Shown: piece after piece, positions 4,398 through 45,906 of the stretch | How the letters are laid out: every line of letters begins with the position of its first letter | How positions within the stretch are numbered: position 1 is the stretch's first letter | From: Halobellus rufus | GTDB taxonomy: Archaea; Halobacteriota; Halobacteria; Halobacteriales; Haloferacaceae | Length of the DNA stretch: 64,000 nucleotides | NCBI RefSeq assembly: GCF_000739575.1 | Contig: NZ_BBJO01000014.1 | Location: 1-64,000, forward strand | Direction: 5' to 3' | Program-made: the position numbers and the translations under genes | Notes under the pieces: model-generated | Seen by the model: the letters and a program-made list of their open reading frames with translations, nothing else | The model's database searches: none | Told to the model about the DNA's origin: nothing

Positions 4398-6206
4398 TTA
4401 TTCGACGGTCACGCTCTTGGCGAGGTTACGCGGCTTGTCGATCGCGCGGTCCAGTTCCGTGGCGCTGTAGTACGAGAGCAACTGCAACTGGACGTTCGCG
4501 AGGAGGTACGAACAGACCGGATGCATATCCGGGACGTAGAGGTGTTCGTCGGCCGTGTCCACGACTTCGTGGTCCGGCGGACAGACCGCGACGATGGGCG
4601 CACCTCGGGTCTTCGCCTCTTCGGCGTTCGTCACCGTCTTTTGGCTGTCGTCCACACAAATTGTGAACACCGGGGTTCGTTCGGTGACGAGTGCCAGCGG
4701 GCCGTGCTTGAGTTCGCCAGACGCGAACCCCTCCGCGTGCTCGTAGGTCACCTCTTTGAACTTGAGTGCGCCCTCCTTCGCGACGGAGCAGCCGAGTCCC
4801 CGTCCGATGAAGAAGTACGCCTTCTCGTTGAGGTACGTTCGCGAGAGGCGCTCGGCGCCGCTCGTCTGAAGCACCTGTTCGACGGCGTCGGAGAGTTCGG
4901 ACAGGTCCGAGACGAGTTCTTCGAGGGTGTCCAGCGGTTCTCCGCCGTCGGTGATCTCGGCGAGGTACTGACTCAGGAGGGTGAGCGTCACCGCCTGCGA
5001 GGAGAACGTCTTCGTCGCCGCGACGCCGATCTCGGGGCCGGCGCGGATGTAGATCGGTTCGTCCGCCTCGCGTGCGGCCGACGACTGGACGACGTTCGTC
5101 ACCGCGAGGCTAGTGGCACCTGCCTTCTTCGCGCGCTTCAGTGCAGTGAGCGTATCGGCTGTCTCCCCGCTCTGTGTGACGGCGATACAGAGCGTCTCCT
5201 CCGACGGAGTGCCGGCGGAGACGTCGTACTCGCTCGCGCGAATGGCCCGCGCTGAAACGCCGCACTGGTTCAGCAGGCTCGCGCCGAACATCGCAGCGTG
5301 GTAGGAGGTGCCGCAGGCAACGAGTTGGACGGACTCGACCCCGGAGAGGTCGATCTCTAAGTCGAGGTCGATCTCGCCGCGATCGCGGTCGAAACGCCCT
5401 TCGAGCGTCTTTTGGAGCGATTCCGGTTGGTTGTGGATCTCCTTGAGCATGTAGTGATCGAACTGCGCCTTCTCGGTCTCGCCGGGCTGCCAGTCGACCT
5501 GCTCGACCTCTCGTTGTGCCAAGTGTCCCTCCTCGTCGATGATTTCGACGCCGTCAGAACGGACCTCGAGGACGTCGCCGTCGTCGAGGTAGAGAACGGT
5601 GTCCGTCTGACCGAGGAACGCCGGCACGTCGCTCGCCAAATAGTAATTGTCCTCTTCGAGACCGAGCACGAGCGGCGATCCCTGCCGGGCGGCGAAGATG
5701 GAATCGCTCCCTTCGATGACGGTCGCGATCGCGTAGCTTCCGTCTAGGTCACTCACCGCGTGCTCGAAGGCGGCCAGCGGTTCGTTCCCGCGATCGAGGT
5801 AGTAGCTGATGAGGTTCGGAATGACTTCGGTGTCCGTGTCGCTCGTGAACTCGTAACCGTCCTCGGAGAGCTTCTCTTTGAGCGTCTCGTAGTTCTCGAT
5901 GATGCCGTTGTGAACCGCAGCGACGCGGTCCGAATCGTCCGTGTGCGGATGTGCGTTCTCGTCGGTCGGTGGTCCGTGCGTACTCCATCTGGTGTGACCG
6001 ATACCGAGCGTCGCGTTAGACTCGACGGTGTCGATAGTCCGCTTCAGGTCCGACACCTGCCCGGAGCACTTCCAGACGTCCAGGCCGTGTCCGTTCTTCA
6101 CGGCGATCCCGGCGGAGTCGTATCCCCGGTATTCGAGCTTCTCGAGCCCGGTTACGAGCGGGTCGAGCGCTTCTCGATCCCCCACGTGTGCGATGATACC
6201 GCACAT
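4398..6206 (-). CDS. glmS: Glutamine--fructose-6-phosphate aminotransferase (isomerizing)
   Basis: A full-length (602 aa) GlmS. The N-terminal Ntn glutaminase domain starts MCGIIAHVG with catalytic Cys2 and has the LEYRGYDSAG signature. Two SIS sugar-isomerase domains follow (CGTSYHAA; VTQSGETADT), and the C-terminus PRNLAKSVTVE is nearly invariant in the family. It makes glucosamine-6-phosphate, the entry to UDP-GlcNAc, in the cytoplasm. A Shine-Dalgarno-like GGAGGTG sits 7 bp before the ATG, which is unusual in this leaderless-rich window and implies a real 5' leader. A copy of the locus-wide promoter element lies about 165 bp upstream. The amidotransferase gene follows in the same direction. 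Confidence 0.97.
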   Translation of the reverse strand: MCGIIAHVGDREALDPLVTGLEKLEYRGYDSAGIAVKNGHGLDVWKCSGQVSDLKRTIDTVESNATLGIGHTRWSTHGPPTDENAHPHTDDSDRVAAVHNGIIENYETLKEKLSEDGYEFTSDTDTEVIPNLISYYLDRGNEPLAAFEHAVSDLDGSYAIATVIEGSDSIFAARQGSPLVLGLEEDNYYLASDVPAFLGQTDTVLYLDDGDVLEVRSDGVEIIDEEGHLAQREVEQVDWQPGETEKAQFDHYMLKEIHNQPESLQKTLEGRFDRDRGEIDLDLEIDLSGVESVQLVACGTSYHAAMFGASLLNQCGVSARAIRASEYDVSAGTPSEETLCIAVTQSGETADTLTALKRAKKAGATSLAVTNVVQSSAAREADEPIYIRAGPEIGVAATKTFSSQAVTLTLLSQYLAEITDGGEPLDTLEELVSDLSELSDAVEQVLQTSGAERLSRTYLNEKAYFFIGRGLGCSVAKEGALKFKEVTYEHAEGFASGELKHGPLALVTERTPVFTICVDDSQKTVTNAEEAKTRGAPIVAVCPPDHEVVDTADEHLYVPDMHPVCSYLLANVQLQLLSYYSATELDRAIDKPRNLAKSVTVE

Positions 6207-6370: not shown

Positions 6371-6389
6371 TTACTATAGACGCGCTAAG
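6371..6389 (-). promoter_or_regulatory. Locus-wide inverted-repeat promoter element, glmS copy
   Basis: Read toward glmS it is CTTAGC-GCGTC-TATAGTAA, matching GCTTAYC-N5-GATAATAA with a TTAGC variant of the left arm, the same variant seen before the DUF1616 gene. It is about 165 bp from the start codon, farther than the other copies. Confidence 0.5.
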
Positions 6390-6513: not shown

Positions 6514-6532
6514 CTTACCGGCCCGATAATAA
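6514..6532 (+). promoter_or_regulatory. Locus-wide inverted-repeat promoter element, DsbA-like gene copy
   Basis: CTTACC-GGCCC-GATAATAA. The ATAATAA arm ends 26 bp before the ATG at 6559, at the TATA-box position for a leaderless mRNA. Confidence 0.7.
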
Positions 6533-7581: not shown

Positions 7582-7878
7582 CTGGGCGTACTCCAGAGGC
7601 TCGAACCGGACGTTTCGCACACGTCGATCAGTTTCTACGCCGCGACCGTTCGCATCAGCGACGCTGCCCTTCTCGCGTCTAGACCGAAAAGCGGGCCGGG
7701 GCGATGGAACCGATCACGCTGTCGGTCGTCGTCTTCGCCTCGCGACCGGAGCGGTTCAGCGTACGCTCGGTTTTCAGCGAACCGTGACGGCCGATCCCCG
7801 CATATCGATTGTCGTCTCGTTCCGGCGCTCACCGGGACCAGGAGTGGTGAGCACCGATACTAGCTCCGGCGATCAGTA
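7582..7878. other. Convergent intergenic region
   Basis: This stretch of about 300 bp separates the 3' ends of the DsbA-like gene and the polytopic membrane protein gene. No coding sequence or RNA gene that I can support is visible. Confidence 0.4.
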
Positions 7879-9843: not shown

Positions 9844-9895
9844 CTCGTGAGATAGGTGGCCGTCGAGCCGTTTCGGGAGCGGCCCGGCGGCTCAA

Positions 9896-10999
9896 TCAGA
9901 TCGTACTCGGCTCCCGGTCCGGCCCGTAGAACACGTCCTGCCAGTCGCGCGTGACGTGCGTCCCCCACTCGACGTCGACGTCCGGGAGTTCGCGGCCGAG
10001 GGCGTACTGCACGCTGAGTGCGGGTATGTTCGCTCCCGCTCCGACGCAGGCGGTGATGCTCTTCGATATCCGGGGGTGGATCCCGAGGAGTTTCGGCGTC
10101 CCGTCGGCGCTACGCTTGAACCGAAGCGTGGCGTTGTACTCCAGCCCGACCAGGTCGCAGATTTCCCGGGAATACTCCATCAGCTCGAAATCCTCCTCGA
10201 CGGTTCCGGTGAACGACCGGTTCTCGTCGGTCTCGGTGTGCAGCCGAGTGACGAGAATCGGCTCCTCGTCCGCCCGGACCAACGCGTCGACGCTGTACTT
10301 CTCCCCCCGGAGGTCCTCTGTCACGACGAGGTCCGGAAACTCCGCCGTCTCGGCGAACGCCGGCAATACCCCGTCTAACGTGGTACGGATGCTGTTCGAC
10401 TGCTTGTTCAGCAGGGCGTTGAACCGGTCTATCTCCGGGTCGAGGATGTGCAGGCAGGAGAGGTCGGTGCTGGTGGGGGGCTTGAAACAGACGCAACGGT
10501 CCGGATACCCGAGCGCGTGGACTGCGTCGACGAACTCTTCGTGGGTCGAGACGCGGTAGAACTCGGGGGTTGCGGGGTGCCCCCGCTTGACGAGTTCTCC
10601 GTAGAGGCGCCCCGTGTCCCGAGCGATCCCGAGGGCACGCGGATCAGCGACCATCACCTGGATGCCTTCGCTCTCGAAGGTCTGTTTCGACTCCGAGAGC
10701 GGCCGGAGGAACTCGGTTCCGAGCGGGAAGACCACGTCCACGTTCTCTCGCCAAGCGATCTCGAACAGCTCGGCGACGAGGGCTTCGGGTTCGTCTTGCG
10801 AGACGGTCGCTGCCGTGTCGACCAGACTGAACCCGCGTGCGTTCGGATTCGCGTCGACGCCGACGATGTGGGCGTCGAACGCGTCGGTCTGTCGGAGGGC
10901 TTTGAGGATTCCCGACGCCCCGAGCGTCCCAACGCCAGCCACCAGTACGGTCACGTCGCCGTCGCGGATCGAGGGCCGAACGGTATCCAGCAGTGTCAT
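9896..10999 (-). CDS. ATP-grasp superfamily enzyme
   Basis: A 367-residue protein of the carbamoyl-phosphate-synthase-large-chain-like ATP-grasp type. The N-terminal Rossmann-like pre-ATP-grasp domain starts with VTVLVAGVGTLGASG. The central part contains the CFKPP and EKYSVDALV strands that hold ATP and metal, and the C-terminus has a PRISKS-like loop. Such enzymes ligate a carboxylate to an amine or thiol through an acyl phosphate; in glycan clusters they often amidate or add amino acids to uronic acids. The substrate is not deducible. The ATG is 27 bp after a copy of the locus-wide promoter element, supporting a leaderless start. It heads a two-gene unit with the membrane protein. Confidence 0.82.
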   Translation of the reverse strand: MTLLDTVRPSIRDGDVTVLVAGVGTLGASGILKALRQTDAFDAHIVGVDANPNARGFSLVDTAATVSQDEPEALVAELFEIAWRENVDVVFPLGTEFLRPLSESKQTFESEGIQVMVADPRALGIARDTGRLYGELVKRGHPATPEFYRVSTHEEFVDAVHALGYPDRCVCFKPPTSTDLSCLHILDPEIDRFNALLNKQSNSIRTTLDGVLPAFAETAEFPDLVVTEDLRGEKYSVDALVRADEEPILVTRLHTETDENRSFTGTVEEDFELMEYSREICDLVGLEYNATLRFKRSADGTPKLLGIHPRISKSITACVGAGANIPALSVQYALGRELPDVDVEWGTHVTRDWQDVFYGPDREPSTI

Positions 11000-11918: not shown

Positions 11919-13007
11919 TTAGGACCGCTGAGCCCCGGTCGCGGGAACGCGCTGTTCCTGTATGCCGACCGTACGCGCGGCCGTGAGCACGCGTCGGACG
12001 ACGACGTCCGTCGCGTCGACCCTCTCTTCGAGGAGCTGACCCCGTCGCTCCTCCCAGTCGACGTCGGTCGACCGGAGGATGTCGTCCGCTCGGTCCACGG
12101 CACGCTCGTTTCGGCGGTCCCCGTGATATCCGAACAGCAGTCCGTAGCTCTCCAAGTCCTGCATCAGACCCGGTTCCGCGCTGTGAACGTACACGGTCGG
12201 GGTTCCGAGGACGGCGCTTTCGGCGGCCATCGTCCCGCTCTCGCCGACGAACAGGTCGGCGTACGCGAGGACGTGGTGGATGAGGTGCGGGGCGACGTCG
12301 AGTGCGTACCCGCGGAGTTCCGGCGGAAGCGCGTCGCCTTCGGCCGAGATCAACACCGTCGCACCCCCGCGTTCGAGGCGGTCGATCAGCGCCGAGAGGC
12401 CGTCGATCCCCTCGTCGCCGACGTCGTGCGCCGCGCCCCAACTGACCAGCCGAACGACCGCGTAGGTGTCGTCGGGGCCGACCGGCAGTCCGTCGAGCGC
12501 CGACGGATCCGGCTCGAACCGGTCCGGGTGTAGGTACGCGAGTTCGTGATAGCTCGGATAGCGGTACTGGTTCGCTCCGGCGTCCTCGCGGTAGCACTCC
12601 GGCGTCGCGACCTCGTCGGCGAAGGGGAACGTCAGCGCGTTCGAGAGCGTCGCGTGCTCGGTGTCCGTGAACACGACGCAGTCCGTGCCGATCAGCCGCG
12701 CGACGTGGGCGGCGTAGAAGCCGCCGATGGTCGTTATCACGTCCGGTTCGATCCGCCTCGCCTCGCGGTAGAGGCGGTATTCGATCGAGAGCGCCGAGAG
12801 CGCGAGTGCGGGCAACGACTCGCCCGGCGAGCCGATGACCTCGTGCTCGATGTCGTACTCTTCGAGGAGCGACACCGAGACGTCCTTATCGAGGGCGCGG
12901 ACGTACACCTCGTGGCCGCGCGCCTCGAACTCGTCGATGGCGTGCTTGAAGAAGTGCACGTGCGCCGGGTGCTGGATCGTGATGAGGATGTCCATCGTCA
13001 CACTCAC
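11919..13007 (-). CDS. DUF354 family protein (GT-B fold, epimerase/glycosyltransferase-like)
   Basis: A 362-residue DUF354 protein related in fold to UDP-GlcNAc 2-epimerases and MurG-type glycosyltransferases. The N-terminus (DILITIQHPAHVHFF) and the C-terminal half, with AEGDALPPE, SGTMAAESAVLGTP and YVHS, are the usual nucleotide-sugar-binding landmarks. It is the last gene of the five-gene operon and overlaps the preceding dehydrogenase stop by 4 bp through a GTGA junction, which supports the GTG start at 13007; the ATG at 12995 is an alternative. It may transfer a sugar, or supply the 2-epimerase step otherwise missing from the diacetamido-uronate pathway seen here. That second idea is inference. 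Confidence 0.85.
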   Translation of the reverse strand: MSVTMDILITIQHPAHVHFFKHAIDEFEARGHEVYVRALDKDVSVSLLEEYDIEHEVIGSPGESLPALALSALSIEYRLYREARRIEPDVITTIGGFYAAHVARLIGTDCVVFTDTEHATLSNALTFPFADEVATPECYREDAGANQYRYPSYHELAYLHPDRFEPDPSALDGLPVGPDDTYAVVRLVSWGAAHDVGDEGIDGLSALIDRLERGGATVLISAEGDALPPELRGYALDVAPHLIHHVLAYADLFVGESGTMAAESAVLGTPTVYVHSAEPGLMQDLESYGLLFGYHGDRRNERAVDRADDILRSTDVDWEERRGQLLEERVDATDVVVRRVLTAARTVGIQEQRVPATGAQRS

Positions 13008-14290
13008 AACTGGGCGTAGTGGAACCCCTGTTCTGTCGCCGCGTCAGCGTCGAACACGTCGGCCACGTCGACCATCACGGGGTCAGGGCCGAGGGAGGCG
13101 GCCATCGATTCGAGGTCGTAGTCGCCGAAGGACTCGTGTGCCGTCGAGACGACGACGCCGTCGTACGCCTCGAAGTCGACCGCTTCGACCACGTCGATGT
13201 CGAATACCTCCCGTGAGTCGGCGGGTTCGGCGTGCGGGTCGTACCCCACGCATTCGACGTCGTACTCGCCGAGTTCGTCGATCATCGTCCCGACGTTGGA
13301 GCTGCGGATGTCACCGACCCCGGGCTTGTAGGCCAGCCCGAGGATCAGGAGCCGCGTGTCCTTCAGGACGCGGCCGGACTCGTTGATCGTCTTGACCGCC
13401 TTTCGCGCCGCGTGGACGGGAACGTACTCGTTGATCTCGCGGGCCTGCAACACGAGCTTCGGCGAGAAGCCCTCGCGCTTGGCGCGGTACGTGAGGTAGA
13501 ACGGGTCGACCGGGATGCAGTGTCCCCCGACGAATCCCGGTGAGTAGCCGTCGTGGAAGTTCCACTTCGTCCCGGCGGCTTCGAGCACGTCCTCCGTCGT
13601 CAGTCCCATGTGGTCGCACGCGATGGCCAGTTCGTTGACGAGGGCGATGTTCATGTCCCGCTGGACGTTTTCGATGACCTTCGACGCCTCTGCGGTCTCG
13701 ATGTCGGGCGCTCTGTGGATGCCCGCGTCGACGATGTCCCCGTAGAGCGCCGCGAGGTCGTCGCGGACCGACTCGGAGTTCGCACCGACCACTTTGACCA
13801 CGTCCCGGACCTTTCGTCCGGCGTCTCCCGGCGAGGCGCGCTCCGGCGAGTAGCCGACGAAGATGTCCTCGCCGACGGTGTAGCCGGACGCGGCTTCGAG
13901 TTCGGGAACGAGGACGGACTCGGTCGCACCGGGGTAGACGGTGGATTCGAGCACGACGGTCGCTCCGGGTGCGATGTACTCCCCGATGGTCTCGGCCGCC
14001 GATTCGACGAACCGGAGGTCGGGGTTCTCCATGCTGTCGACCGGCGTCGGGACCGTCACGACGACGAAGTCCGCATCAGAGACGTGCGAGGGGTCCGCAG
14101 TGAAGAACACCTCGGAAGCGGCGACGCGGTCGTCGGTGAGGTCGCCGGTCGGGTCGGTTCCGGACGCGAGTTCGTCGATTTTCCCCGCGTCGACGTCGTA
14201 GCCGATCACTTCCTTCCCCGCGCGATCGAACTCGACCGCCAGCGGGAGGCCGACGTACCCGAGCCCCACGACGCAGACTGTCTCAGTCAT
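13004..14290 (-). CDS. Nucleotide-sugar 6-dehydrogenase (WbpO/TviB-like)
   Basis: A 428-residue UDP-glucose/GDP-mannose dehydrogenase family enzyme. The NAD-binding Rossmann motif VVGLGYVGLPLA is at the N-terminus, the middle domain includes the conserved FVGYSPERASPG, and the catalytic Cys lies in FVGGHCIPVDPFYL. The KWNFHDGYSPG segment before the Cys is characteristic of UDP-GlcNAc/UDP-GalNAc 6-dehydrogenases of the WbpO/TviB type, so the likely product is a UDP-N-acetylhexosaminuronic acid. Substrate specificity is not certain. It overlaps both neighbours by a few bases within the five-gene operon. A second, distinct dehydrogenase lies immediately upstream. Confidence 0.92.
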   Translation of the reverse strand: MTETVCVVGLGYVGLPLAVEFDRAGKEVIGYDVDAGKIDELASGTDPTGDLTDDRVAASEVFFTADPSHVSDADFVVVTVPTPVDSMENPDLRFVESAAETIGEYIAPGATVVLESTVYPGATESVLVPELEAASGYTVGEDIFVGYSPERASPGDAGRKVRDVVKVVGANSESVRDDLAALYGDIVDAGIHRAPDIETAEASKVIENVQRDMNIALVNELAIACDHMGLTTEDVLEAAGTKWNFHDGYSPGFVGGHCIPVDPFYLTYRAKREGFSPKLVLQAREINEYVPVHAARKAVKTINESGRVLKDTRLLILGLAYKPGVGDIRSSNVGTMIDELGEYDVECVGYDPHAEPADSREVFDIDVVEAVDFEAYDGVVVSTAHESFGDYDLESMAASLGPDPVMVDVADVFDADAATEQGFHYAQL

Positions 14291-15671
14291 AGAGGCCGAT
14301 CCCCTCGTAGACGACGTCCTCGTCGTCTCGGTACTCCGTCGCTGCCTGGCGGCCGTCGACGAGCACGACCGGGCGTTCGCCGTCGCCGAGCGCCGGAACG
14401 TCGAGGCCGTCGAACGAGTCGTGAGCGGTCACGAGAAGCACGGCGTCGACGGACAGGTCGTCGCCGTTCGGGTCGTCGAGGACCGTCGCGCCGGCGTTCT
14501 CGAAGTCGGCGGTGTCGTCGAGGATGGGGTCGGTGGCGACGACGTCGGCACCGGCGTCGTCGAGGTGTTCGACGATCGGCAGCGCCGGCGTCTTTCGGAT
14601 CTCTTCGACGCCGGCTCGGTAGGCCAATCCGAGGACCAAGACGGTCGCATCCGCGGGGGCGACGCCCTGCGCCTCCAGTCTGTCGAGCGCCGCCTGCGCG
14701 GTGACGTGCGGCATCTCGTCGTTGATCTCGCGGGCCGTCTCCATGAGCGACGACTCCGCGTCGAACCGCTCGATGAGGAACTTCGGATAGTACGGGATGC
14801 AGTGCCCGCCGACGCCCGCGCCGGGCGCGTGGATGTCGCAGAACGGCTGCGTGTTGGCGACGTCGATCGCTTCCGTGACGTCGACCTCGAACTCGTCGGC
14901 GTGGTTCGCGAGTTCGTTCGCGAGCGCGATGTTGACGTCGCGGTAGATGCCCTCGAAGACCTTGACCGCCTCCGCGGTCGTGGTGTCAGAGACGGTTATG
15001 ACCTCGTTCGAGCTGATCTGCTCGTAGACGAGCGCCGCGGCGCGTGTGCTTTCGGCGTCCGCGCCGCCGACGACCTTCGGGTACGCGCCCCGGATGTCTT
15101 CCAACGCCCGGCCGGAGGAGGTCCGTTCTGGGCAGAACGCGAGCCCGAACTCTCCGAGCGAGAGGCCGCTCTCGGCTTCGAGCTTCGGCAGCAGTTCGTC
15201 GGCGCAGGTCCGCGGGGGGAGCGTCGACTCGAAGACGACGAGGTCGCCCTCCTCGAGCCCCCGTGCGATGCTCTCCGTCACCGCCTCGATTATCGAGAGG
15301 TCGGGGCGGCCGCGGTCGTCGATGAGCGTCGGGACGATAACCACGTGGACGCTCGTCTCCGCTGCGACGTCGTCGGGATCGGTGTCGGCGACGAGCGACC
15401 CTCGTTCGACCTGTTCCTCGACGAGGTCGTCCAGTCCCGGCTCGCCGACGACGTGACTGCGACCGGCGTTGACCTCTCGGACGACGTCTGGATCGACGTC
15501 CGCGCCGATCACGTTCCCCGTGGTCTCGGCGTAGACCGAGGCGAGGGGAAGTCCCATCTTGCCGAGGCCGTAGACGCCGACGGGTACCTGTCCCGACGTC
15601 AGTGCGTCGATCTGTTCGTCTTCGGGTCGCGTGGATCCGTAGACTGCTCTGATGGTGGATTTCGAGCTCAT
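14283..15671 (-). CDS. Nucleotide-sugar dehydrogenase (WecC-like, UDP-ManNAc/UDP-GlcNAc type)
   Basis: A 462-residue paralog of the downstream dehydrogenase. It has the NAD-binding VGVYGLGKMGLPLASV, a conserved LAFCPERTSSGRALED, and the catalytic Cys in GVGGHCIPYYPKFL, preceded by PFCDIHAPG, the pattern of archaeal WecC-type enzymes oxidising UDP-ManNAc (or UDP-GlcNAc). The N-terminal ~30 residues before the Rossmann motif are longer than usual. It overlaps the acyltransferase stop by 4 bp (ATGA) and the next dehydrogenase by 8 bp, so translation is probably coupled. Two non-identical dehydrogenases in one operon suggest two different uronic acids in the glycan. Confidence 0.92.
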   Translation of the reverse strand: MSSKSTIRAVYGSTRPEDEQIDALTSGQVPVGVYGLGKMGLPLASVYAETTGNVIGADVDPDVVREVNAGRSHVVGEPGLDDLVEEQVERGSLVADTDPDDVAAETSVHVVIVPTLIDDRGRPDLSIIEAVTESIARGLEEGDLVVFESTLPPRTCADELLPKLEAESGLSLGEFGLAFCPERTSSGRALEDIRGAYPKVVGGADAESTRAAALVYEQISSNEVITVSDTTTAEAVKVFEGIYRDVNIALANELANHADEFEVDVTEAIDVANTQPFCDIHAPGAGVGGHCIPYYPKFLIERFDAESSLMETAREINDEMPHVTAQAALDRLEAQGVAPADATVLVLGLAYRAGVEEIRKTPALPIVEHLDDAGADVVATDPILDDTADFENAGATVLDDPNGDDLSVDAVLLVTAHDSFDGLDVPALGDGERPVVLVDGRQAATEYRDDEDVVYEGIGLYD

Positions 15672-20075: not shown

Positions 20076-20744
20076 TCACGGAGACAACGTGGACTCGATG
20101 AGCCTGCTGATGGAACGGCGGATGCGCTGTGACACTCCGGATTTCGAGATCCCGAGTCGGGCAGCGAGTTCCTCCTGTGACGTTTTGCGCGGCACGTCGA
20201 AGTAACCGCTCTTGTGGGCGATCAGCAGTGCTTCGTGCTGCGCCGGGAGCAGCCCCGTCTCGGACCCGGCGTCGGTCTCACGAGCGACGTGCAGGCGCTT
20301 TACGCGGAAGGTGATGTCGTGATCGTGGTAGTGTGATTGCACCCGGTGCAGCGTCGAGTGGGCGGGAAGTTGCATCTGAACGCGCCACGACCCGTCTCGG
20401 TGGCGAACGGAGATGACGCGGACGCCCATCTCGGTCGACGACTGTGGGATCAGTTGTACGCCGTTTCGAAAGAGCACTCTGAACCGCCTCTCTTCGCCGA
20501 TCTCCCCGAGGAACTCCGCGTCTTCGACGGTCGAGTCCGATTGCAGCGACTCCAACAGCGACTCGGTCGTTCCTCCGTCGACGACGACGAACGCACAGTC
20601 CCAGCCCAGCCCGTCGGTCGGTTGGAACTCCAACTCCACCGCGTACGGCGTGTCGGCAGTGAACGTCGAGAGTATCAACCGCGGGTCGTCGAGACTGAGT
20701 TCGAGATAGATCGGCCGCGAGTCCTCATCACGTCCTACCGGCAT
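20076..20744 (-). CDS. HTH_10 transcriptional regulator inside the glycan locus
   Basis: A 222-residue Bat-like regulator: an N-terminal sensor-like domain (~150 residues) and a C-terminal HTH_10 domain with LLPAQHEALLIAHKSGYF, then PRKTSQEELAARLGISKSGVSQ as the helix-turn-helix. The ATG at 20744 is preferred over the in-frame start at 20771 because a near-perfect copy of the locus-wide promoter element lies 30 bp upstream. It sits alone on the minus strand between glycan genes. Being inside the locus and carrying the element in its own promoter makes it the leading candidate for the factor that reads the element (inference). Confidence 0.85.
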   Translation of the reverse strand: MPVGRDEDSRPIYLELSLDDPRLILSTFTADTPYAVELEFQPTDGLGWDCAFVVVDGGTTESLLESLQSDSTVEDAEFLGEIGEERRFRVLFRNGVQLIPQSSTEMGVRVISVRHRDGSWRVQMQLPAHSTLHRVQSHYHDHDITFRVKRLHVARETDAGSETGLLPAQHEALLIAHKSGYFDVPRKTSQEELAARLGISKSGVSQRIRRSISRLIESTLSP

Positions 20745-20774: not shown

Positions 20775-20794
20775 TTATTATTCGGATGATAAGC
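20775..20794 (-). promoter_or_regulatory. Locus-wide inverted-repeat promoter element, HTH_10 copy
   Basis: + strand TTATTATT-CGGAT-GATAAGC, 30 bp upstream of the regulator ATG at 20744. Confidence 0.65.
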
Positions 20795-36842: not shown

Positions 36843-37832
36843 TCAGTCAGCGTCGATCCGTACCGGCGTCTTTCGATCCGCTGTCGACGTGGCTTCGGCG
36901 TCGAGCGACTTCGTCAAACTCAACACACGAAGGCCCTGCTCGCCGTCGACGACCGGATCCGAGCCGGATCGGGCGGCGTTCGCGAAGGACCGGAGTTCGC
37001 TCTTCAAGGGCTCGACCTGCTCGACCGAGAGCGTTTCGACGAGGTTTTCGTGACGGTGGCGGAGGAACGACTCGTCGTCGATGTAAGTGGGAACGGACGA
37101 TCGGTGGATCTCGATGCTCTGGTCGATGTAGTCGACTTTCACCCGGCAGTCGGCGGCCGAGATCGTGAGCTTCCGAACCTTCTCTTGGGTGACCCGACTA
37201 GTCGTGAGTGATGCGGTCACGCCCGAGTCGAACCGGAGGTTCGCGTTCGCGTAGCGGCCCTTCGGCGTCCCGACCGCGTTGTAGGATTCGACTTCGCCGT
37301 CGACGAGGTCGAGGACGATGTCGAGGTCGTGAATCATCAGGTCCATCACGACGGTGTCGTCGATCATCCGGTCGACGGGCGGGCCGAGGCGTTCGGTCGA
37401 AACCGCGTAGACGTCGAGATCGTCGACGAGGTCGCCGAGCGTCTGGATCGCCGGATTGAACCGCTCGATGTGCCCGACCTGCAGGACGAGGTCGCGTTCG
37501 TCGGCGAGGGCGGTCAGCTCTCGGCCGTTCCGGGGATCTTCGACGAAGGGCTTCTCGACCAACACGTGAACGTCAGACTGGAGGGCGCGCTTGGCGTTCT
37601 CGTAGTGGAACTGCGTCGGGACGGCGACAGAGACGACGTCGGCGACTGCCAGCAGTTCGTCCATCGACAGCGCGGTCGTTCCGTACTCGGCGGCCACCTC
37701 GGTCGCCCGCTCGCCGTCGACGTCGAAGACGCCGACGAGGTTCGTCTCGTCGATTTCATCGTACACGCGCGTGTGATTTTGCCCCATACTTCCGACGCCG
37801 ATGACCCCGGCGTTCACTCGCTCGTCAGTCAT
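36843..37832 (-). CDS. Gfo/Idh/MocA-type sugar-nucleotide 3-dehydrogenase (WbpB/WlbA-like)
   Basis: A 329-residue oxidoreductase with an N-terminal NAD-binding fold (NAGVIGVGSMGQNHTRVY), the EKPF motif (HVLVEKPFVEDP) with the catalytic Lys, and the C-terminal substrate domain with GHIERFNPAIQ and a conserved HDLDIVLDLV. Proteins of this type paired with a DegT aminotransferase oxidise the 3-OH of UDP-GlcNAcA. The ATG at 37832 lies inside the 3' end of the aminotransferase gene (8-bp overlap), so the two are cotranscribed and probably consecutive enzymes. Exact substrate is inference. Confidence 0.9.
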   Translation of the reverse strand: MTDERVNAGVIGVGSMGQNHTRVYDEIDETNLVGVFDVDGERATEVAAEYGTTALSMDELLAVADVVSVAVPTQFHYENAKRALQSDVHVLVEKPFVEDPRNGRELTALADERDLVLQVGHIERFNPAIQTLGDLVDDLDVYAVSTERLGPPVDRMIDDTVVMDLMIHDLDIVLDLVDGEVESYNAVGTPKGRYANANLRFDSGVTASLTTSRVTQEKVRKLTISAADCRVKVDYIDQSIEIHRSSVPTYIDDESFLRHRHENLVETLSVEQVEPLKSELRSFANAARSGSDPVVDGEQGLRVLSLTKSLDAEATSTADRKTPVRIDAD

Positions 37833-38964
37833 CGGCCACCTCCGCGACCGCGGCCGGACCCTCGGGCGAGGCGATAGACACCTCGTCCCGGAGGACGGTT
37901 CCGATCCGTTCGACCTCGCTGTCATCGAGAGCGGGGTGCACTGGCAGCGAGAGCACCTGTTCGGCGACCCGTTCTGCGTTGGGTGCCTGGACGTCGTAGC
38001 CGTCGTACGCCGGTTGGTCGTGGATGCAACGCGGGTAGTACACGCCGGTTCCGATCCCCCGCTCGTCGAGTTGGTCGGCCACGTCCGCTCGATTGCCGAC
38101 GCGGATCGTGTACTGATGATAGGCGTGGTCGTACCCGTCCGGGACCGCGGGCGTGACCGCGTCCGTGTCCGCGAGCAGGCGATCGAGACGCGACGCGTTC
38201 TCGCGACGCGCCTCGACGAACTCGGGGAGCCGATCGAGCTGCGCCCGGCCCATCGCCGCCGCGACGCTCGTCATCCGGAAGTTGTGGCCGACCGAGACGT
38301 GGCGGTAGCCGTCGGACTCGCGCCCGTGGTTGATGAAACTCGCCGCCCGCCGAGCGATGGACTCGTCGTCGGTGAGGACCATCCCTCCCTCGCCGGTGGT
38401 CATGTTCTTCGTCGGGTAGAACGAGAAGCACGCGACGTCCCCGAGCGACCCCACCGGATCGCCGCGGTAGCTCGCCCCGTGCGCCTGCGCGGCGTCCTCG
38501 ACGACGGCCACGTCGTAGTCGTCGGCGATGCTGCGAAGGCGATCCATCGGTGCCGAGAGACCGTAGAGGTGGACGGCGACCATCGCCTCGACGTCGCCGT
38601 CGAGGGCTTCGAGCTTCGCTTCGACGCTCTCGGGATCGAGGTTGAACGTCTCCGGGTCGACGTCGGCGAAGACGGGTTCGGCCCCGGCGAGGCGTATCGC
38701 GTTCGCCGTGGCGACGAAGGAGAACGGCGTGGTGAGCACTCGGTCCCCCGGTTCGACGCCCACCGCTTCGAGCGCCGTGTGGAGGGCCGTCGTCCCGTTC
38801 GACGTCGCGACGCCGTGTCCGACGTCGCAGTAGTCCGCGAACGCGGCCTCGAAGTCGCGGACCTCCGGGCCGTCTGCGAGCATCCCGGACTCGATGACCG
38901 ACTCCACGTTCGCGAGTTCGGCGTCTCCGAGTTCTGGGTCGGCGATCGAGATCCGATCGGTCAT
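37825..38964 (-). CDS. DegT/DnrJ/EryC1/StrS aminotransferase (WbpE/WlbC-like)
   Basis: A 379-residue PLP-dependent sugar aminotransferase. It has SNGTTALHTAL for PLP phosphate binding, VVEDAAQAHGASY, the PLP Lys in FSFYPTKNMTTGEGG, and the VGHNFRMTSVAAAMGRAQLDRL block shared by the family, which is diagnostic. With the overlapping 3-dehydrogenase it would convert the 3-keto sugar nucleotide to the 3-amino sugar. The ATG at 38964 overlaps the stop of a 29-codon upstream frame, and the promoter element lies about 137 bp upstream. Confidence 0.93.
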   Translation of the reverse strand: MTDRISIADPELGDAELANVESVIESGMLADGPEVRDFEAAFADYCDVGHGVATSNGTTALHTALEAVGVEPGDRVLTTPFSFVATANAIRLAGAEPVFADVDPETFNLDPESVEAKLEALDGDVEAMVAVHLYGLSAPMDRLRSIADDYDVAVVEDAAQAHGASYRGDPVGSLGDVACFSFYPTKNMTTGEGGMVLTDDESIARRAASFINHGRESDGYRHVSVGHNFRMTSVAAAMGRAQLDRLPEFVEARRENASRLDRLLADTDAVTPAVPDGYDHAYHQYTIRVGNRADVADQLDERGIGTGVYYPRCIHDQPAYDGYDVQAPNAERVAEQVLSLPVHPALDDSEVERIGTVLRDEVSIASPEGPAAVAEVADD

Positions 38965-39100: not shown

Positions 39101-39120
39101 TTATTATGAGTCAGATAAGC
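39101..39120 (-). promoter_or_regulatory. Locus-wide promoter element, aminotransferase-operon copy
   Basis: + strand TTATTATG-AGTCA-GATAAGC; one mismatch from consensus. It faces the aminotransferase/3-dehydrogenase operon. Confidence 0.65.
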
Positions 39121-39208: not shown

Positions 39209-39793
39209 ATGTCCCCGACGCGGTCACCCAGTGGCCCGGACGATACTGAGACAGGGGCCACACCGGAGCTCGACGTTATGCCCGGGTTCGGTGGCGTCTC
39301 GGAGAGTGACCGCCGCGAGGAGATCGTTTCGCTCGTCGACGAACGACCGACGACGCCGTACACGGTCGGTGAACTGACGGTCGAACTCTCCGAGTGGTTC
39401 CACGCAGAGACCGACGGAATGGTCCCGACCGACGAGGAGATACACAGCACGCTCTACGACTTCGACCTCCCCGCCCTCGACAACAGTGGGCGGATCGTCT
39501 TCGACGAGGCGACTGGCCGGGTGTACGCGACTGATTACGAGGCAGCGAGGCGATCGATGTCGCCGGATTCGGGCCCAGAGCACGGAGCGTCCGTCGGTGA
39601 TGGATCATCGGACGCGACCGCGCTGACCGGAGAGCGCGTCACGGTCTCGAAGAGGTTGCTGACGGACCTCGCCGTCTTGGTGGTCGGCCTGCTCGGCGTC
39701 GCCGTCGCGGCGTCGGACCTGCTCCCCGTCGGTACGTCGACGGCACTCGTTCCGGCCGGACTCGTCGTCCTCTATTTTATCTCACGCGCGTGA
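39209..39793 (+). CDS. DUF7344-like winged-helix protein with two membrane helices
   Basis: A 194-residue protein related in layout to the 35539 gene: a winged-helix-like domain (residues ~28-115; REEIVSLVDERPTTPYTVGELTVEL, STLYDFDLPALDNSGRIVFDE) and two transmembrane helices at the C-terminus (~150-190). A TATA-like TTTTATTTTC about 30 bp before the ATG suggests a leaderless mRNA. No catalytic signature. It may be a membrane-tethered regulator. Confidence 0.78.
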   Translation: MSPTRSPSGPDDTETGATPELDVMPGFGGVSESDRREEIVSLVDERPTTPYTVGELTVELSEWFHAETDGMVPTDEEIHSTLYDFDLPALDNSGRIVFDEATGRVYATDYEAARRSMSPDSGPEHGASVGDGSSDATALTGERVTVSKRLLTDLAVLVVGLLGVAVAASDLLPVGTSTALVPAGLVVLYFISRA

Positions 39794-40241: not shown

Positions 40242-40261
40242 GATTATCTGGTCGATAGTAA
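40242..40261 (+). promoter_or_regulatory. Locus-wide promoter element, pseudo-phosphomutase copy
   Basis: GATTATC-TGGTC-GATAGTAA, ending 26 bp before the ATG at 40288. Confidence 0.6.
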
Positions 40262-40287: not shown

Positions 40288-41622
40288 ATGTTCGCATCAG
40301 CACGTATCCGGGGTACGTACGGTTCCCACGTGACCGCGAAACTCGCCCTCAAGACCGGTCGTGCCCTGACCAGCAACCGCGACGAGATCGTCCTCGGACA
40401 CTCCCCGAGCGAGAGCGCACGGCTCCTGGCCGACGCCGTCTCCACCGGGATCCGCGAGTGCGGTGGGACGGTCGTGCGGCTCGGAGAGACGGCCGGCCCG
40501 ACGGTCGCGAACAGCGTCAGCCGGCTGGGCGGTGACGGCGGCGTCGCGGTCGTCGCCGTCGGTGGGCGACCCGAACGAGCCAGTCTGAAGCTGTTCGACG
40601 GCGACGGGTCCCCACTCTCGTGGGAGCAGCAGAGCGAAATCGTCCGGCGGGTCAACCGATCGACTGCCGACATCGCTTCGTGGGGGGAGTTGGGGTCGGA
40701 ACGACGATTGGATGACGCCACCGCACGTCACGTCGAACGGCTCTGCGAGAACCGCCCGACGTTCTCCGACACCCGCGTGGCCGTGGCCGTCGGCGAGTAC
40801 GAGACCGCTGTCACGGCCGAGGCCCTCGACCAACTCGGCTGCGAGGTGGACCGCCTCGCCGACACGAGCGACGACGCGCTCCCGCAGGGACGCATCTCGC
40901 CGGGGGACGACGTGTGCGCGACGCTGCGACGCGCGGTCGCGACCTCCGACGCCGACTTCGGCGTCGCACACGGCGTCGACGCAGAGCGACTCGTCGTCGT
41001 CGATGGACGCGGTGAGATCGTCGAGGGGAACTCGCTAGTGGCGCTGTTCGCGCGAGGCGCGGTACGCGACGCAGGCCACGGTGCGTGCGTTGCGATCCCG
41101 CAGGGTGCGAGTCGGCGGATCGACGACGTCGTGGCCGACGTCGGGGGACAGGTCACCAGACCCGAGGCGGAACGGGACTCCTGGCCGCGTCCGGGAGGGT
41201 CCGCAAACGTCGTCTTCGGCGGTGACCCGAACGGCGTCCACCAGTGGCCACAGGAGTCGCCCTGTCCGGACGCCGCGTTGTCGGCGATCAAACTCGCCAG
41301 TCTCGTTGACGACGGCGCGGCTCTCGCCGAGCAACTCACGGACGTCCCAGCGTATCCGCTCTACTGTAAGTCGTTCGGGGTCGACAGTCTCGCCAGCGAG
41401 ATGATCCGGGTCGCCGCAGACGCGAAGGAGCGCTTCGAGTCCGTCTCCACCGACGGCTGCGTGCTCGGCGAAACCGACGACGCCTGGTTCGTCGTCAGGC
41501 CGGACCGGACCGAACCGGCCCTTCGAGTGACTGCAGAGGGGACGTCGAAGCGCAGCGCGAAGCAGTTGTTCGAGCGCGTTACCTCCTTGATCGCCGACGA
41601 GCAGACGACGGTCGCCACGTGA
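40288..41622 (+). CDS. Catalytically dead phosphohexomutase paralog
   Basis: A 444-residue protein that aligns along its length with the GlmM at 44522 but has lost every key site. The phospho-Ser loop TASHNP of GlmM (residues 90-95) is AVGGRP here, so Ser92 is Gly. The metal loop DGDADR is GVDAER. The GRDAR loop near residue 38 is GHSPS, and the sugar loop GGEPSG is GGDPNG. The fold core and C-terminal phosphate-binding RPDRTEPALRVTAEG (family RxSGTxPxxRV) are partly kept. It is full length and in frame with a good promoter, so it looks like a maintained pseudoenzyme (regulator or scaffold of sugar-phosphate enzymes) rather than a decaying gene. Confidence 0.88.
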   Translation: MFASARIRGTYGSHVTAKLALKTGRALTSNRDEIVLGHSPSESARLLADAVSTGIRECGGTVVRLGETAGPTVANSVSRLGGDGGVAVVAVGGRPERASLKLFDGDGSPLSWEQQSEIVRRVNRSTADIASWGELGSERRLDDATARHVERLCENRPTFSDTRVAVAVGEYETAVTAEALDQLGCEVDRLADTSDDALPQGRISPGDDVCATLRRAVATSDADFGVAHGVDAERLVVVDGRGEIVEGNSLVALFARGAVRDAGHGACVAIPQGASRRIDDVVADVGGQVTRPEAERDSWPRPGGSANVVFGGDPNGVHQWPQESPCPDAALSAIKLASLVDDGAALAEQLTDVPAYPLYCKSFGVDSLASEMIRVAADAKERFESVSTDGCVLGETDDAWFVVRPDRTEPALRVTAEGTSKRSAKQLFERVTSLIADEQTTVAT

Positions 41623-41674: not shown

Positions 41675-42856
41675 CTATCGGTCTCGGGTCACTGTTTCAC
41701 CGGCCGGGATCGAAGTCCCGTGAGACAGTTTCACGCCGGCGTCGAGCGTGGCATCGATCCCCGTCCCGACGTCGTCGCCGACGACGACGCCGAAGTTCTG
41801 CCGACCGGTGGAGACGCGGTCGCCTTTGACCGTGACGACGACGTCGCTGCCGTCCTGACAGCGGTTGACCACCTTGAGCCCGGGGCCGAAATCGACCTCT
41901 CGCCCGACGACGCTGTCACCGACGTAGGAGTGGTGGCCGACCCGGGTATCCGCGAGGAGGACGCTGTTTTCGATCTCGACAGCGCGCTCAACGCTGACGT
42001 TCGGGCCGATGAACGTCCGTCCACGGACGTACGCGTTCGGACCGACTTCTGCGCCCGAGGAGACGACCGCTGGTCCGTCGACGACGGTCTCCTCTCGGAT
42101 CGTCGCCCCCTCCTCGACGACGACGTCTCCTCGAATCGTCGCGTCGTCGCTCACGTCGCCGTCGACCCGTCTGTCGATCGTCCCGAGTTTCCACTCGTTG
42201 GCTTCGAGGAGCTCCCACGGCCGCCCGACGTCCATCCAGCGGTCGAGCGTCACCGAGGTGACGTTGAAGTCCTCGATGACCCGTTCGAGCACGTCGGTGA
42301 GTTCGCGCTCGCCGCGTTCGCTCTCGGGAACGTCGAGCGCGTCGCGCGCCTCCGCCGGGAAGACGTACGCCCCCGCGTTCACGAGGTCGTTCTGCGGCGC
42401 GTCGGGCTTTTCGACGATGTCCGACACCGCGCCGTCGGCCACGGTCAACACCCCGTAGTTCTCCGGGTCCGGAACGCGGATGGAAGCGACGCTCGGTGCG
42501 GCCGCGAACAGTCTGTCGATGCCGTCTGGATCGTAGAGGGAGTCGCCGGAGAGGACGGCGAACGGTCCGTCGATGTGCTCTTTCGCGGCGTGAACGGCGT
42601 CTGCGGTGCCGCGCTGTTTCGATTGGACGACGTACGTGACGGGCACGTCACGGTGGGCGGTTCCGAAGTGATCTCGTACGCGCTGTTGGCCGTGACCGAC
42701 GACGAACAGGAGTTCGTCGGCCCCCGCTTCGACGGCGGCGTCAGCGGTGTGCTCGGCGATCGGCCGGCCGGCGACCGAAAGCATCGGTTTGGGCGTCGCG
42801 TTCGATAGCGGTCGCATTCGAGTCCCGCGTCCGGCGGCGAGTACGATTGCCTGCAT
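41675..42856 (-). CDS. GlmU-like bifunctional sugar-1-phosphate nucleotidyltransferase/acetyltransferase
   Basis: A 393-residue protein. The N-terminal nucleotidyltransferase domain has the signature AIVLAAGRGTRMRPL with PKPMLSVAGRP, then GDSLYD and a GAYVFP element. From residue ~240 a left-handed beta-helix follows (VEEGATIREETVV and further repeats). This is the archaeal GlmU arrangement that makes UDP-GlcNAc from glucosamine-1-phosphate; dTDP/UDP-sugar pyrophosphorylase is the alternative. The ATG is 27 bp after a perfect-looking promoter element. GlmS and GlmM are also in this window. Confidence 0.9.
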   Translation of the reverse strand: MQAIVLAAGRGTRMRPLSNATPKPMLSVAGRPIAEHTADAAVEAGADELLFVVGHGQQRVRDHFGTAHRDVPVTYVVQSKQRGTADAVHAAKEHIDGPFAVLSGDSLYDPDGIDRLFAAAPSVASIRVPDPENYGVLTVADGAVSDIVEKPDAPQNDLVNAGAYVFPAEARDALDVPESERGERELTDVLERVIEDFNVTSVTLDRWMDVGRPWELLEANEWKLGTIDRRVDGDVSDDATIRGDVVVEEGATIREETVVDGPAVVSSGAEVGPNAYVRGRTFIGPNVSVERAVEIENSVLLADTRVGHHSYVGDSVVGREVDFGPGLKVVNRCQDGSDVVVTVKGDRVSTGRQNFGVVVGDDVGTGIDATLDAGVKLSHGTSIPAGETVTRDR

Positions 42857-42883: not shown

Positions 42884-42903
42884 TTATTATCCGTGAGATA
42901 AGC
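42884..42903 (-). promoter_or_regulatory. Locus-wide promoter element, GlmU-like copy
   Basis: + strand TTATTATC-CGTGA-GATAAGC, consensus in both arms. It is 27 bp upstream of the ATG. Confidence 0.72.
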
Positions 42904-42945: not shown

Positions 42946-44313
42946 CTATCCGTGCAGGACTCCGTGCTGCCAGAGCAGATCGCGCGCCACGGCGAGTTCC
43001 CACGTCACCGCATCCTCGAAGTGCGTCTCCTTTCGGGTCGTCTCCACGAGATACCCCGGGAGGCGGAGGTCGCCGTACACCTTGTGAACGAGTCGCGGGT
43101 GCGATCCGTCCAGGGAGTTCCCGCAGTCGAAGTCGTAGTACGTCGGGTACTCCGAGAGGTCTACGTACTGCTCGTTGACGTACTCGCAGGCACCCACCGC
43201 GTTCCCGGGCGTCGCAGCGGTCGGGAAGACGGCCTGTCCGACCTTGCCGTCGTGCTTGTAGATGCCGCTCGAACTGTGGAGGTCGACGACGACGTCCGGA
43301 TCGTGCGAACGGAGTTCCTCCCAGAGCGCGCGAGCGAGGGTCGACGTCGGCTCAGGTCCCGTGGGGAACTGCTGGTTGAGGTCGCCGTCGGTCGTGTACC
43401 GCGCTCCGATGTCGACGGCGGGCTTGTTCGCGTAGGGAACGACGACGAGTTTCCCGCCCGTCGGGCGGAGCCGAGTCACGTGCCTCGCGGCGGTGTACCC
43501 CTCCGGTTCCTCACCGTGAATCCCGCCGACGACGAACGCCGTCGGCCCGGGTCTCCCCGATTCGATGACGTACACCGGCGTCTCGTAGTCGGTCCCCGGA
43601 AGCAGCGAGTGGGTCTGAACCGACCCTTCGTTGGCCCTATCGAGGCGCTTCCGGATCCAGCCGAGTACGTCGGCGTAGTTCCCGTGCTTGTGATCGCGGA
43701 GCAGGCGGATCCGCGGCACGTCGGAGATCCCGTAGCGGACTGCTTCGTCGGTCGCGCCGCGAACGAGTGCGTCGTACCGGTCCCTGTACGCCCGGTTGGC
43801 GATCTTCGTGACGTTTCGGACGCCCGCGAGGTCCATGTAGGACTCCAGCCGGGAGTGCGTGTACGTCTTCGTCGTGAAGTTCCAGAACATGAACTCGAAG
43901 AACGTCCAGAAGTTCTCCGGTTCGACGTCCCAGACGCCGTGACCGGCGCGCGCGGCACGGGCCTCTCCCTCGTCGTCGCCGACGAGGTAGGTGTCGACGT
44001 CGTCCGGTCGATACGAGAGGAATCGGACCTCGAGATTCAGGTGGCCCGGGACCACGTATTCGCGGACGATGCGCTCCAGATTGTGCTGTACGAAGTACTG
44101 GGAGGCTTCCGAGAGGAAGTTGACGTAGACGACCAGCGTGGGATTGCTGTCGTCCGTTCCCATCGTCGGGTACAATCGATCGCTGAGGTACGGTGCGGTT
44201 CCGACGACACCCGGCGAAAAGTCGGCAGAGACGGGCTGTGCTCCGGCGGCACCGACGAGCGTGAGCCCTCCGGCGGCCGTGAGAAAACGGCGTCGAGTTA
44301 GTTGTGGATTCAC
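42946..44313 (-). CDS. Tat-secreted fusion of a cysteine-less thioredoxin fold and an AstE/M14-like zinc carboxypeptidase
   Basis: With a GTG start at 44313 the protein (455 aa) opens with an ideal Tat signal (TRRRFLTAAGG). Residues ~55-235 form a DsbA-like thioredoxin fold similar in outline to the lipoprotein at 6559 (VVYVNFLSEASQYF; ENFWTFFEFMFW; SDVPRIRLL), but the CxxC position reads SEAS, so it has no redox cysteine. Residues ~240-455 match the succinylglutamate desuccinylase/aspartoacylase branch of M14 peptidases: GGIHGEEPEG (His266, Glu269) and DLHSSSG (His346) are the zinc ligands. It would cleave an amide bond outside the cell. Other in-frame starts (44364, 44412) lack a better signal. 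Confidence 0.83.
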   Translation of the reverse strand: MNPQLTRRRFLTAAGGLTLVGAAGAQPVSADFSPGVVGTAPYLSDRLYPTMGTDDSNPTLVVYVNFLSEASQYFVQHNLERIVREYVVPGHLNLEVRFLSYRPDDVDTYLVGDDEGEARAARAGHGVWDVEPENFWTFFEFMFWNFTTKTYTHSRLESYMDLAGVRNVTKIANRAYRDRYDALVRGATDEAVRYGISDVPRIRLLRDHKHGNYADVLGWIRKRLDRANEGSVQTHSLLPGTDYETPVYVIESGRPGPTAFVVGGIHGEEPEGYTAARHVTRLRPTGGKLVVVPYANKPAVDIGARYTTDGDLNQQFPTGPEPTSTLARALWEELRSHDPDVVVDLHSSSGIYKHDGKVGQAVFPTAATPGNAVGACEYVNEQYVDLSEYPTYYDFDCGNSLDGSHPRLVHKVYGDLRLPGYLVETTRKETHFEDAVTWELAVARDLLWQHGVLHG

Positions 44314-44521: not shown

Positions 44522-45859
44522 TCACGTTCGGTCGGGTGCCGGAGCAGGATCGGCGCGCTCTTCGACCATCGCCATCGCCTCCTCGAACAGCCCGTCGGCT
44601 TCGGCGTCGGTTCGCGCTTCGGCAGTCACTCGGACGAGCGGTTGCGTTCCGCTCGCTCGAACGAGGAACCACCCGTTGTCGGTCTCGACTCGGAGCCCGT
44701 CGCGGTCGTCGATCCCCTCGTACTCCGCGCGGAGCGGCGCTTCGACCCGGTCGAGAACGCGCCGCTTGTGGTCGGTACTGACGCTTCCCCGCCGCAGTGG
44801 GTACCCGTCTATCTCGTCGGCGAGATCTGCCAGTGGCCCACGCCGGGACACGAGTTCGACGAGTTTACACGCCGCGAGCGGGCCGTCGGGGCAGGGTGTC
44901 TCCCCGCTCCAGATCCACGCCCCCGAGGGTTCGCCGCCGAAGACGACGCCCGGTTCGGCGCAGCGCTCGGCGACGAACGTGTCGCCGACGCGAGTCCGAA
45001 CGACGTCCGCACCGACCTCGGCGACGGCGTCGTCGACCGCGAGGCTCGTGTTGACGGGAACCGCGATTCGGTCCCCGTCGGTCGCCGCCTCCCGCGCGAA
45101 CACGGACAGGAGCGTATCGCCCGCGACGACACGCCCGTCGCCGTCGACCGCGACCATCCGGTCGGCGTCCCCGTCGTGGGCGATTCCGAGGTCGGCGCCG
45201 ACGGCCTCGACGTGCGTTCGGAGCGGTCGAATCGCCTCGGCGGTCGGTTCACTGGGCCGACTGGGAAATCGCCCGTCGCGCTGTCCGTTGAGCGTCGAGA
45301 CTTCACATCCGAGGTCCGCGAGCGCGTCCGCCGTCAACCGACCGGTCCCGTTCCCGACGCCGACGACCACGGAGAGCGGAGCGTCGATATCCACGCTCGT
45401 TCGGAGCTCCTCACGGTGGCGTTCGTACGTGTCTCGTTCCCGTATGGACCCGATCCCGTCCCACGCGGCAAACTCGTATTCCTCCTCACGAACGCGGCGC
45501 TCGATACGCTCGCGTCGGTCGCGCCCGAAGGCCCGCCCGGAACTCGTCCACAACTTCACGCCGTTGTCGGTCGGCGGGTTGTGCGACGCCGTGATCGCCG
45601 CGGCGGCGTCGGCCCCCAGCCACTCTGCCGAGCGCGCAATCGTCGGCGTCGAGTTGGTCCCGATACGGATCACGTCGGCCCCGCACTCGGCGGCACCCGC
45701 GATGAACGCGTGTTCGAGCATCTCCCCGCTCGTGCGCGCGTCGCGCCCGACGACGACGAGGTCGGCCCCCTCACTCGCGAGGGCCCGTCCCAGCGACAGC
45801 GTCAGATCCGCAGTGATTTCCGCTCCGATCGGCCCGCGGACGCCACTCGTTCCGAACAT
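44522..45859 (-). CDS. glmM: Phosphoglucosamine/phosphohexose mutase
   Basis: A 445-residue alpha-D-phosphohexomutase with all motifs intact: the phospho-Ser loop TASHNP (Ser92), metal-binding DGDADR, sugar-specificity GGEPSG and the C-terminal phosphate-binding RASGTQPLVRV. The GEPSG loop suits glucosamine/mannose-type substrates. With GlmS and the GlmU-like enzyme it would supply UDP-GlcNAc. The ATG follows a promoter element by 27 bp. The symbol is assigned from family and context; phosphomannomutase activity cannot be excluded. Confidence 0.85.
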   Translation of the reverse strand: MFGTSGVRGPIGAEITADLTLSLGRALASEGADLVVVGRDARTSGEMLEHAFIAGAAECGADVIRIGTNSTPTIARSAEWLGADAAAAITASHNPPTDNGVKLWTSSGRAFGRDRRERIERRVREEEYEFAAWDGIGSIRERDTYERHREELRTSVDIDAPLSVVVGVGNGTGRLTADALADLGCEVSTLNGQRDGRFPSRPSEPTAEAIRPLRTHVEAVGADLGIAHDGDADRMVAVDGDGRVVAGDTLLSVFAREAATDGDRIAVPVNTSLAVDDAVAEVGADVVRTRVGDTFVAERCAEPGVVFGGEPSGAWIWSGETPCPDGPLAACKLVELVSRRGPLADLADEIDGYPLRRGSVSTDHKRRVLDRVEAPLRAEYEGIDDRDGLRVETDNGWFLVRASGTQPLVRVTAEARTDAEADGLFEEAMAMVEERADPAPAPDRT

Positions 45860-45886: not shown

Positions 45887-45906
45887 TTACTATGGGAGGG
45901 GTAAGC
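45887..45906 (-). promoter_or_regulatory. Locus-wide promoter element, glmM copy
   Basis: + strand TTACTATG-GGAGG-GGTAAGC; 27 bp upstream of the ATG. Confidence 0.6.

Follow-up and report, generated by a model that had tools for sequence, protein, structure and literature searches.

The open reading frame at positions 40288..41622 (+ strand) of the window, by which we mean the whole stretch of 64,000 nucleotides analysed here, very probably encodes a selected, non-mutase pseudoenzyme: a full-length protein of 444 amino acids with the α-D-phosphohexomutase fold which lacks the phosphoserine. Judging from sequence, the combination by which a pseudoenzyme is recognized, namely loss of catalytic residues, purifying selection and an intact reading frame, is found in it. 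On balance, and taking selection and mechanism jointly, we lean towards the reading that this dead paralogue of GlmM (designated pseudo-GlmM in the following) has been retained as an accessory protein, one that probably regulates or scaffolds, in an island for a UDP-GlcNAc-derived surface glycan.

The frame begins with ATG, contains no internal stop codon and can be aligned end to end (160 identities in 455 columns) with the GlmM encoded at 44522..45859 (- strand), in agreement with the first-pass annotation, which had described a full-length protein in an intact frame. This GlmM, a phosphoglucosamine mutase with all motifs and the putative partner of pseudo-GlmM, scores 460 bits with TIGR03990, the model of archaeal GlmM, for which the curated cut-off is 439 bits; pseudo-GlmM reaches 233 bits and its Haloferax orthologues (see below) 286 and 300 bits, all below the cut-off. 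Pfam places the PGM_PMM domains I, II and IV above cut-off, and domain III is not listed. A structural model predicted with AF2 from an alignment of 63 sequences had a pLDDT of 88 and a pTM of 0.89 (it was used instead of a poor model with a pLDDT of 48 that was obtained from nine sequences), and its best match in the PDB found by Foldseek was 1wqa (TM 0.82, E 5.7e-39), phosphohexomutases in general matching best. By this confident model, the predicted four-domain fold is kept over the full length of the protein despite the missing catalytic residues.

Between GlmM and pseudo-GlmM of the window, FGTSGVRG is changed to FASARIRG, GRDARTSG to GHSPSESA, the phosphoserine loop TASHNPPTDNG to VAVGGRPERAS, the metal loop HDGDADR to HGVDAER, the sugar loop GGEPSG to GGDPNG and the phosphate loop SGT to DRT. 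The alterations of the GRDAR, DGDADR and GGEPSG loops had been read correctly before; the phosphoserine itself, said to be replaced by glycine, corresponds to Val91, and the glycine follows one residue later, at the position of the histidine. A serine hidden by misalignment was ruled out, as the loop is aligned without gaps and the three lineages have valine, valine and alanine at this position; a serine one residue past the nucleophile position occurs in the H. gibbonsii group only. Pseudo-GlmM would presumably be unable to transfer a phosphoryl group.

Orthologues of pseudo-GlmM were found in eight more genomes among the 171 of the family. One belongs to a sister species in the same genus (G005; 88% identity, same gene order) and seven to one other genus (51-61% identity), which we take to be Haloferax because, over this gene, two of the genomes are 99.5-99.8% identical at the DNA level to H. 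gibbonsii LR2-5 and H. larsenii NCIM 5678. The gene of H. gibbonsii LR2-5 is HfgLR_RS18575 on plasmid pHGLR2. In 392-genome samples taken from the order and from the class, there were no further orthologues; the viral contigs searched had no relatives, and a search of genome contigs gave distant bacterial mutases only. The nine members from two genera are all full-length, without stop codons or frameshifts in the nine carrier genomes, and form a single clade (SH-aLRT 100) which branches among the haloarchaeal GlmMs on a stem branch of 1.63. Since this clade does not join the neighbouring GlmM and has so long a stem, pseudo-GlmM is, by its position in the tree, an old paralogue; a recent duplicate of the neighbouring GlmM was rejected, as the two are not sisters. 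In RefSeq-derived records, the orthologues are named phosphoglucosamine mutase despite the absence of the catalytic residue.

The phosphoserine is replaced by valine or alanine in all nine members, whereas about 55 further proteins of the GlmM type from haloarchaea that were inspected all have the serine. Also common to the whole clade are FA[PS][SA]RIRG, GH[DS], the nucleophile position without serine and, where GlmM has SGT, [SD]RT; G6R, R38H and G407R are fixed, and the VGD motif is absent from all members. Orthologues sharing substitutions, a check named in the first-pass annotation, thus exist. Loss of all catalytic loops had been claimed as well, which holds for the window protein but not for the Haloferax orthologues: these retain the metal-binding aspartates in D[AP]DADR, the sugar loop GGEP[ST]G, R404 and T408, with SRT as the phosphate loop. 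In the genus of the window, the metal loop reads GVDAER (window) or DVDAER (G005) and the sugar loop GGDPNG. Among 149 near-invariant GlmM positions, 42 are lost in every pseudo-GlmM lineage and 62 are kept. The parsimonious order inferred from these sequences is that the common ancestor of the clade first lost the residues for phosphoryl transfer and that the metal loop and the sugar loop were lost later, in the lineage of the window.

Pseudo-GlmM is under purifying selection comparable to that of active GlmM in all three lineages. Between the window and G005, its dN/dS was 0.195 by NG86 and 0.134 by YN00; by the same two methods, the adjacent GlmM gave 0.217 and 0.185, GlmU 0.126 and 0.094. 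For pseudo-GlmM in close Haloferax pairs, the values were 0.075-0.23 (NG86) and 0.05-0.27 (YN00; a single value at 0.27). This ratio, a check already named for the annotation, hence speaks for purifying selection. Pseudo-GlmM has diverged faster than the island enzymes, since its identity between the window and the H. gibbonsii-type protein is 61% and theirs 73-82%. Moreover, the strongest constraint now lies on domain 1 and no longer on domain 3, which binds the sugar. In three independent species pairs, the amino acid differences in domains 1 and 3 amounted to 18:43 in pseudo-GlmM and to 32:17 in GlmM, in which domain 3 is the most conserved; the shift had the same direction in all three pairs (pooled Fisher p=2.4e-4, one of the three pairs being significant alone). 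Domain 1 (residues 1-130; 40288..40677, + strand), with FASARIRG, GHSPS and the Ser-less loop, is the most constrained part of the pseudoenzyme, and domain 3 (residues 241-352; 41008..41343, + strand), in which VGD is replaced and GGDPNG stands for GGEPSG, is relaxed relative to GlmM.

In the GlmM dimer of Bacillus, the contacts are formed between domains 1 (PMC8573169). It is mainly because of this dimerization of bacterial GlmM via domain 1 and of the shift of constraint to the same domain that we propose a protein-protein role. Pseudo-GlmM, for which binding of GlmM/GlmU or of a sugar phosphate is the probable mode of action, would be produced along with the GlmS-GlmM-GlmU supply line and would act via domain 1, most likely in a hetero-oligomer with the GlmM (or GlmU) of the island that would tune or tether the flux into the polymer pathway. 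The hetero-oligomer with GlmM/GlmU as the mechanism is a tentative assignment. Slightly more tentative is the comprehensive proposal of a new prokaryotic family of pseudo-phosphohexomutases which hetero-oligomerizes with the GlmM (or GlmU) of its regulon, controls the supply of UDP-GlcNAc and has suffered an ordered loss, first of the serine and the phosphate loops and later of the metal and sugar loops.

Alternatively, pseudo-GlmM might be a sugar-phosphate sensor which binds GlcN-6P, GlcN-1P or a bisphosphate without turnover and thereby signals or buffers the state of the pathway. Such a role, which we regard as unlikely, would fit the three metal-binding aspartates, GGEP[ST]G, R404 and T408 of the Haloferax orthologues, and also the precedent of herring PGM5, which is inactive with its substrate binding intact (PMC7761743). 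However, the metal ligands are gone from the lineage of the window, where not even the two sister species agree (GVDAER and DVDAER), its sugar loop is GGDPNG, and it is the sugar-binding domain 3 that is relaxed. The idea that the active site was not killed but rebuilt for another chemistry is more doubtful still. It could draw on 36 positions at which the clade is invariant but departs from the GlmM consensus, two of them glycine-to-arginine changes at active-site loops, and on Glc-1,6-bisphosphate synthase, a superfamily branch known to have a new reaction (PMC9426568); but there is no family-wide serine, threonine, aspartate or histidine at or adjoining the nucleophile position, the metal ligands are not conserved throughout the family, and the synthase reaction belongs to a superfamily which is said to require phosphoserine and metal (PMC9426568).

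Retention as an accessory protein of the island, the reading favoured here, is in line with the genomic context. The island spans positions 2658-47601 of the window (about 45 kb), is devoted to UDP-amino-sugar/polysaccharide functions and is common to all nine carriers. On the - strand, it encodes GlmS, a glutamine--fructose-6-phosphate transaminase (4398..6206), two nucleotide-sugar 6-dehydrogenases (13004..15671), an HTH_10/BAT transcription factor (20076..20744), a Gfo/Idh oxidoreductase (36843..37832; the nearest NCBIfam model is UDP-GlcNAc 3-dehydrogenase, below its cut-off), a DegT/DnrJ aminotransferase (37825..38964), a GlmU-like bifunctional nucleotidylyltransferase/acetyltransferase (41675..42856; TIGR03992), which is convergent with the pseudo-GlmM gene, and, between GlmU and GlmM, an AstE/AspA-type hydrolase (42946..44313), which is conserved in the island and truncated in G084. 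Besides GlmM, a hexapeptide acyltransferase, glycosyltransferases, a polysaccharide flippase-like protein and others complete the set. Most of the island keeps its gene order in G078 as well as in the parts of G077, G079 and G084 that were read. A DUF7344-like gene upstream of the pseudoenzyme gene (39278-39793) had a dN/dS of 0.44 (NG86, versus G005), the weakest constraint among nine neighbours compared.

The ATG of pseudo-GlmM is preceded at a distance of 26 nt by the promoter element TTATC-N6-ATAGTAA (TTATCTGGTCGATAGTAA; 40244..40261, + strand). It had been noted as intact earlier, rightly so: it belongs to a motif, TTAYC-N6-ATARTAA, with nine exact copies in the window (at 6515, 16438, 20775, 28706, 33055, 39101, 40244, 42884 and 45887) versus 0.01 expected. 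Copies on the - strand precede GlmM (45887..45904), GlmU (42884..42901) and DegT-Gfo/Idh (39101..39118), the HTH_10 gene has its own copy at 20775, others are also preceded by the element, and GlmS has a promoter-like site at 6371 with one mismatch; the distance to the ATG is 26-30 nt for pseudo-GlmM, GlmU, GlmM and the HTH_10 gene. In the entire genome (3.85 Mb), 12 copies were counted, nine of them inside the window, and a reversed control of the element gave no match. The element is conserved before every pseudo-GlmM orthologue. Island-bearing Haloferax genomes possess 7-9 sites, nearly all within the island, and three Haloferax genomes without the island possess none. In the H. gibbonsii group, the pseudo-GlmM gene is separated by about 8-10 kb from the other genes of the island, and the outermost site is its own. 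An aryl-sulfotransferase-like gene and a gene for a 567-aa protein are located just upstream of it in this group only (locus positions 6906-9972). The element is possibly the operator or a special core promoter of a dedicated island regulon, for which the HTH_10/BAT protein is the obvious candidate regulator, and pseudo-GlmM appears to be co-regulated with the surface-glycan genes.

The island GlmM (at least 69% identity) was detected in ten of the 171 family genomes, and pseudo-GlmM in nine of these ten and in none of the other 161 (Fisher p=4e-14, a value that ignores the common descent of the island); as these genomes have a single island in common, the co-occurrence is not an independent association. 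The tenth genome (G142) carries nearly the whole island, and neither the pseudoenzyme gene nor a recognizable remnant was found in the stretches searched, for which reason pseudo-GlmM is regarded as accessory. In H. larsenii NCIM 5678, there is an in-frame TGA at the codon for the clade-invariant Trp112 (record positions 12334-12336), and the gene is annotated as two pieces; this nonsense codon and the G142 island together indicate that pseudo-GlmM is dispensable. The presence of the island in two genera and in G142 and its location on plasmids in Haloferax make horizontal transfer likely. Plasmid location, nonsense codon, absence from G142 and the long stem branch could also be those of a functionless paralogue that decays or hitch-hikes on a mobile island. 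This we judge about as improbable as a rebuilt active site, in view of dN/dS values well below 1 and like those of active GlmM in all three lineages, the absence of frameshifts from nine genomes and an element retained even some 10 kb away from the rest of the island; chance or a pseudogene was rejected on account of the dN/dS, of a frame that is intact in all nine genomes and of the retained promoter. Scattered, truncated or neutrally evolving orthologues, which the first-pass annotation had named as evidence against retention, were largely not encountered, the nonsense codon at Trp112 and the G142 island without the gene being the exceptions, and the retained non-catalytic role it had suggested is supported by selection, by the shift in domain constraint and by the shared promoter, the role itself being one that we infer. 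That pseudo-GlmM regulates the c-di-AMP cyclase of archaea, or some other protein not belonging to the pathway, in the way in which the GlmM of Firmicutes binds and inhibits CdaA (PMC8573169), is highly improbable: we noticed no gene for a cyclase among those of the island, and it is to the island itself that the co-regulation points.

We regard the pseudo-GlmM clade as a new family of pseudo-phosphohexomutases which selection maintains within the regulon of a surface glycan. In this clade, one may follow step by step how an enzyme of metabolism loses catalysis and yet remains in the regulon of its pathway, and its hosts are archaea for which genetic tools exist. Pseudoenzymes are best known from eukaryotic signalling. 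Pseudo-GlmM also illustrates that proteins annotated as phosphoglucosamine mutase may lack the catalytic residue.

In the literature searched, neither a prokaryotic pseudo-phosphohexomutase nor a paper pairing phosphoglucosamine mutase with a pseudoenzyme was found, and the nearest described case is PGM5 (aciculin) of vertebrates, which likewise is of full length and inactive and has a paralogue that is an active mutase (PMC7761743). The PGM5 of herring, though inactive, binds glucose-1-phosphate (PMC7761743) and keeps the catalytic serine, the metal site and substrate binding, whereas the archaeal clade has lost the serine and arose separately, within GlmM. With archaeal GlmM (TIGR03990) and the α-D-phosphohexomutase superfamily, pseudo-GlmM shares the four-domain fold, length and ancestry, but it is without the phosphoserine and stays at 233-300 bits against the cut-off of 439. 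The Glc-1,6-bisphosphate synthases (Slr1334 family) are also phosphohexomutase paralogues with a different role (PMC9426568), although the chemistry of the superfamily uses the phosphoserine that is absent from pseudo-GlmM. Bacterial GlmM acting on the c-di-AMP cyclase CdaA/DacA provides the parallel of a GlmM dimer that works by protein-protein contact (PMC8573169, PMC6368335); that GlmM, however, is an active mutase.
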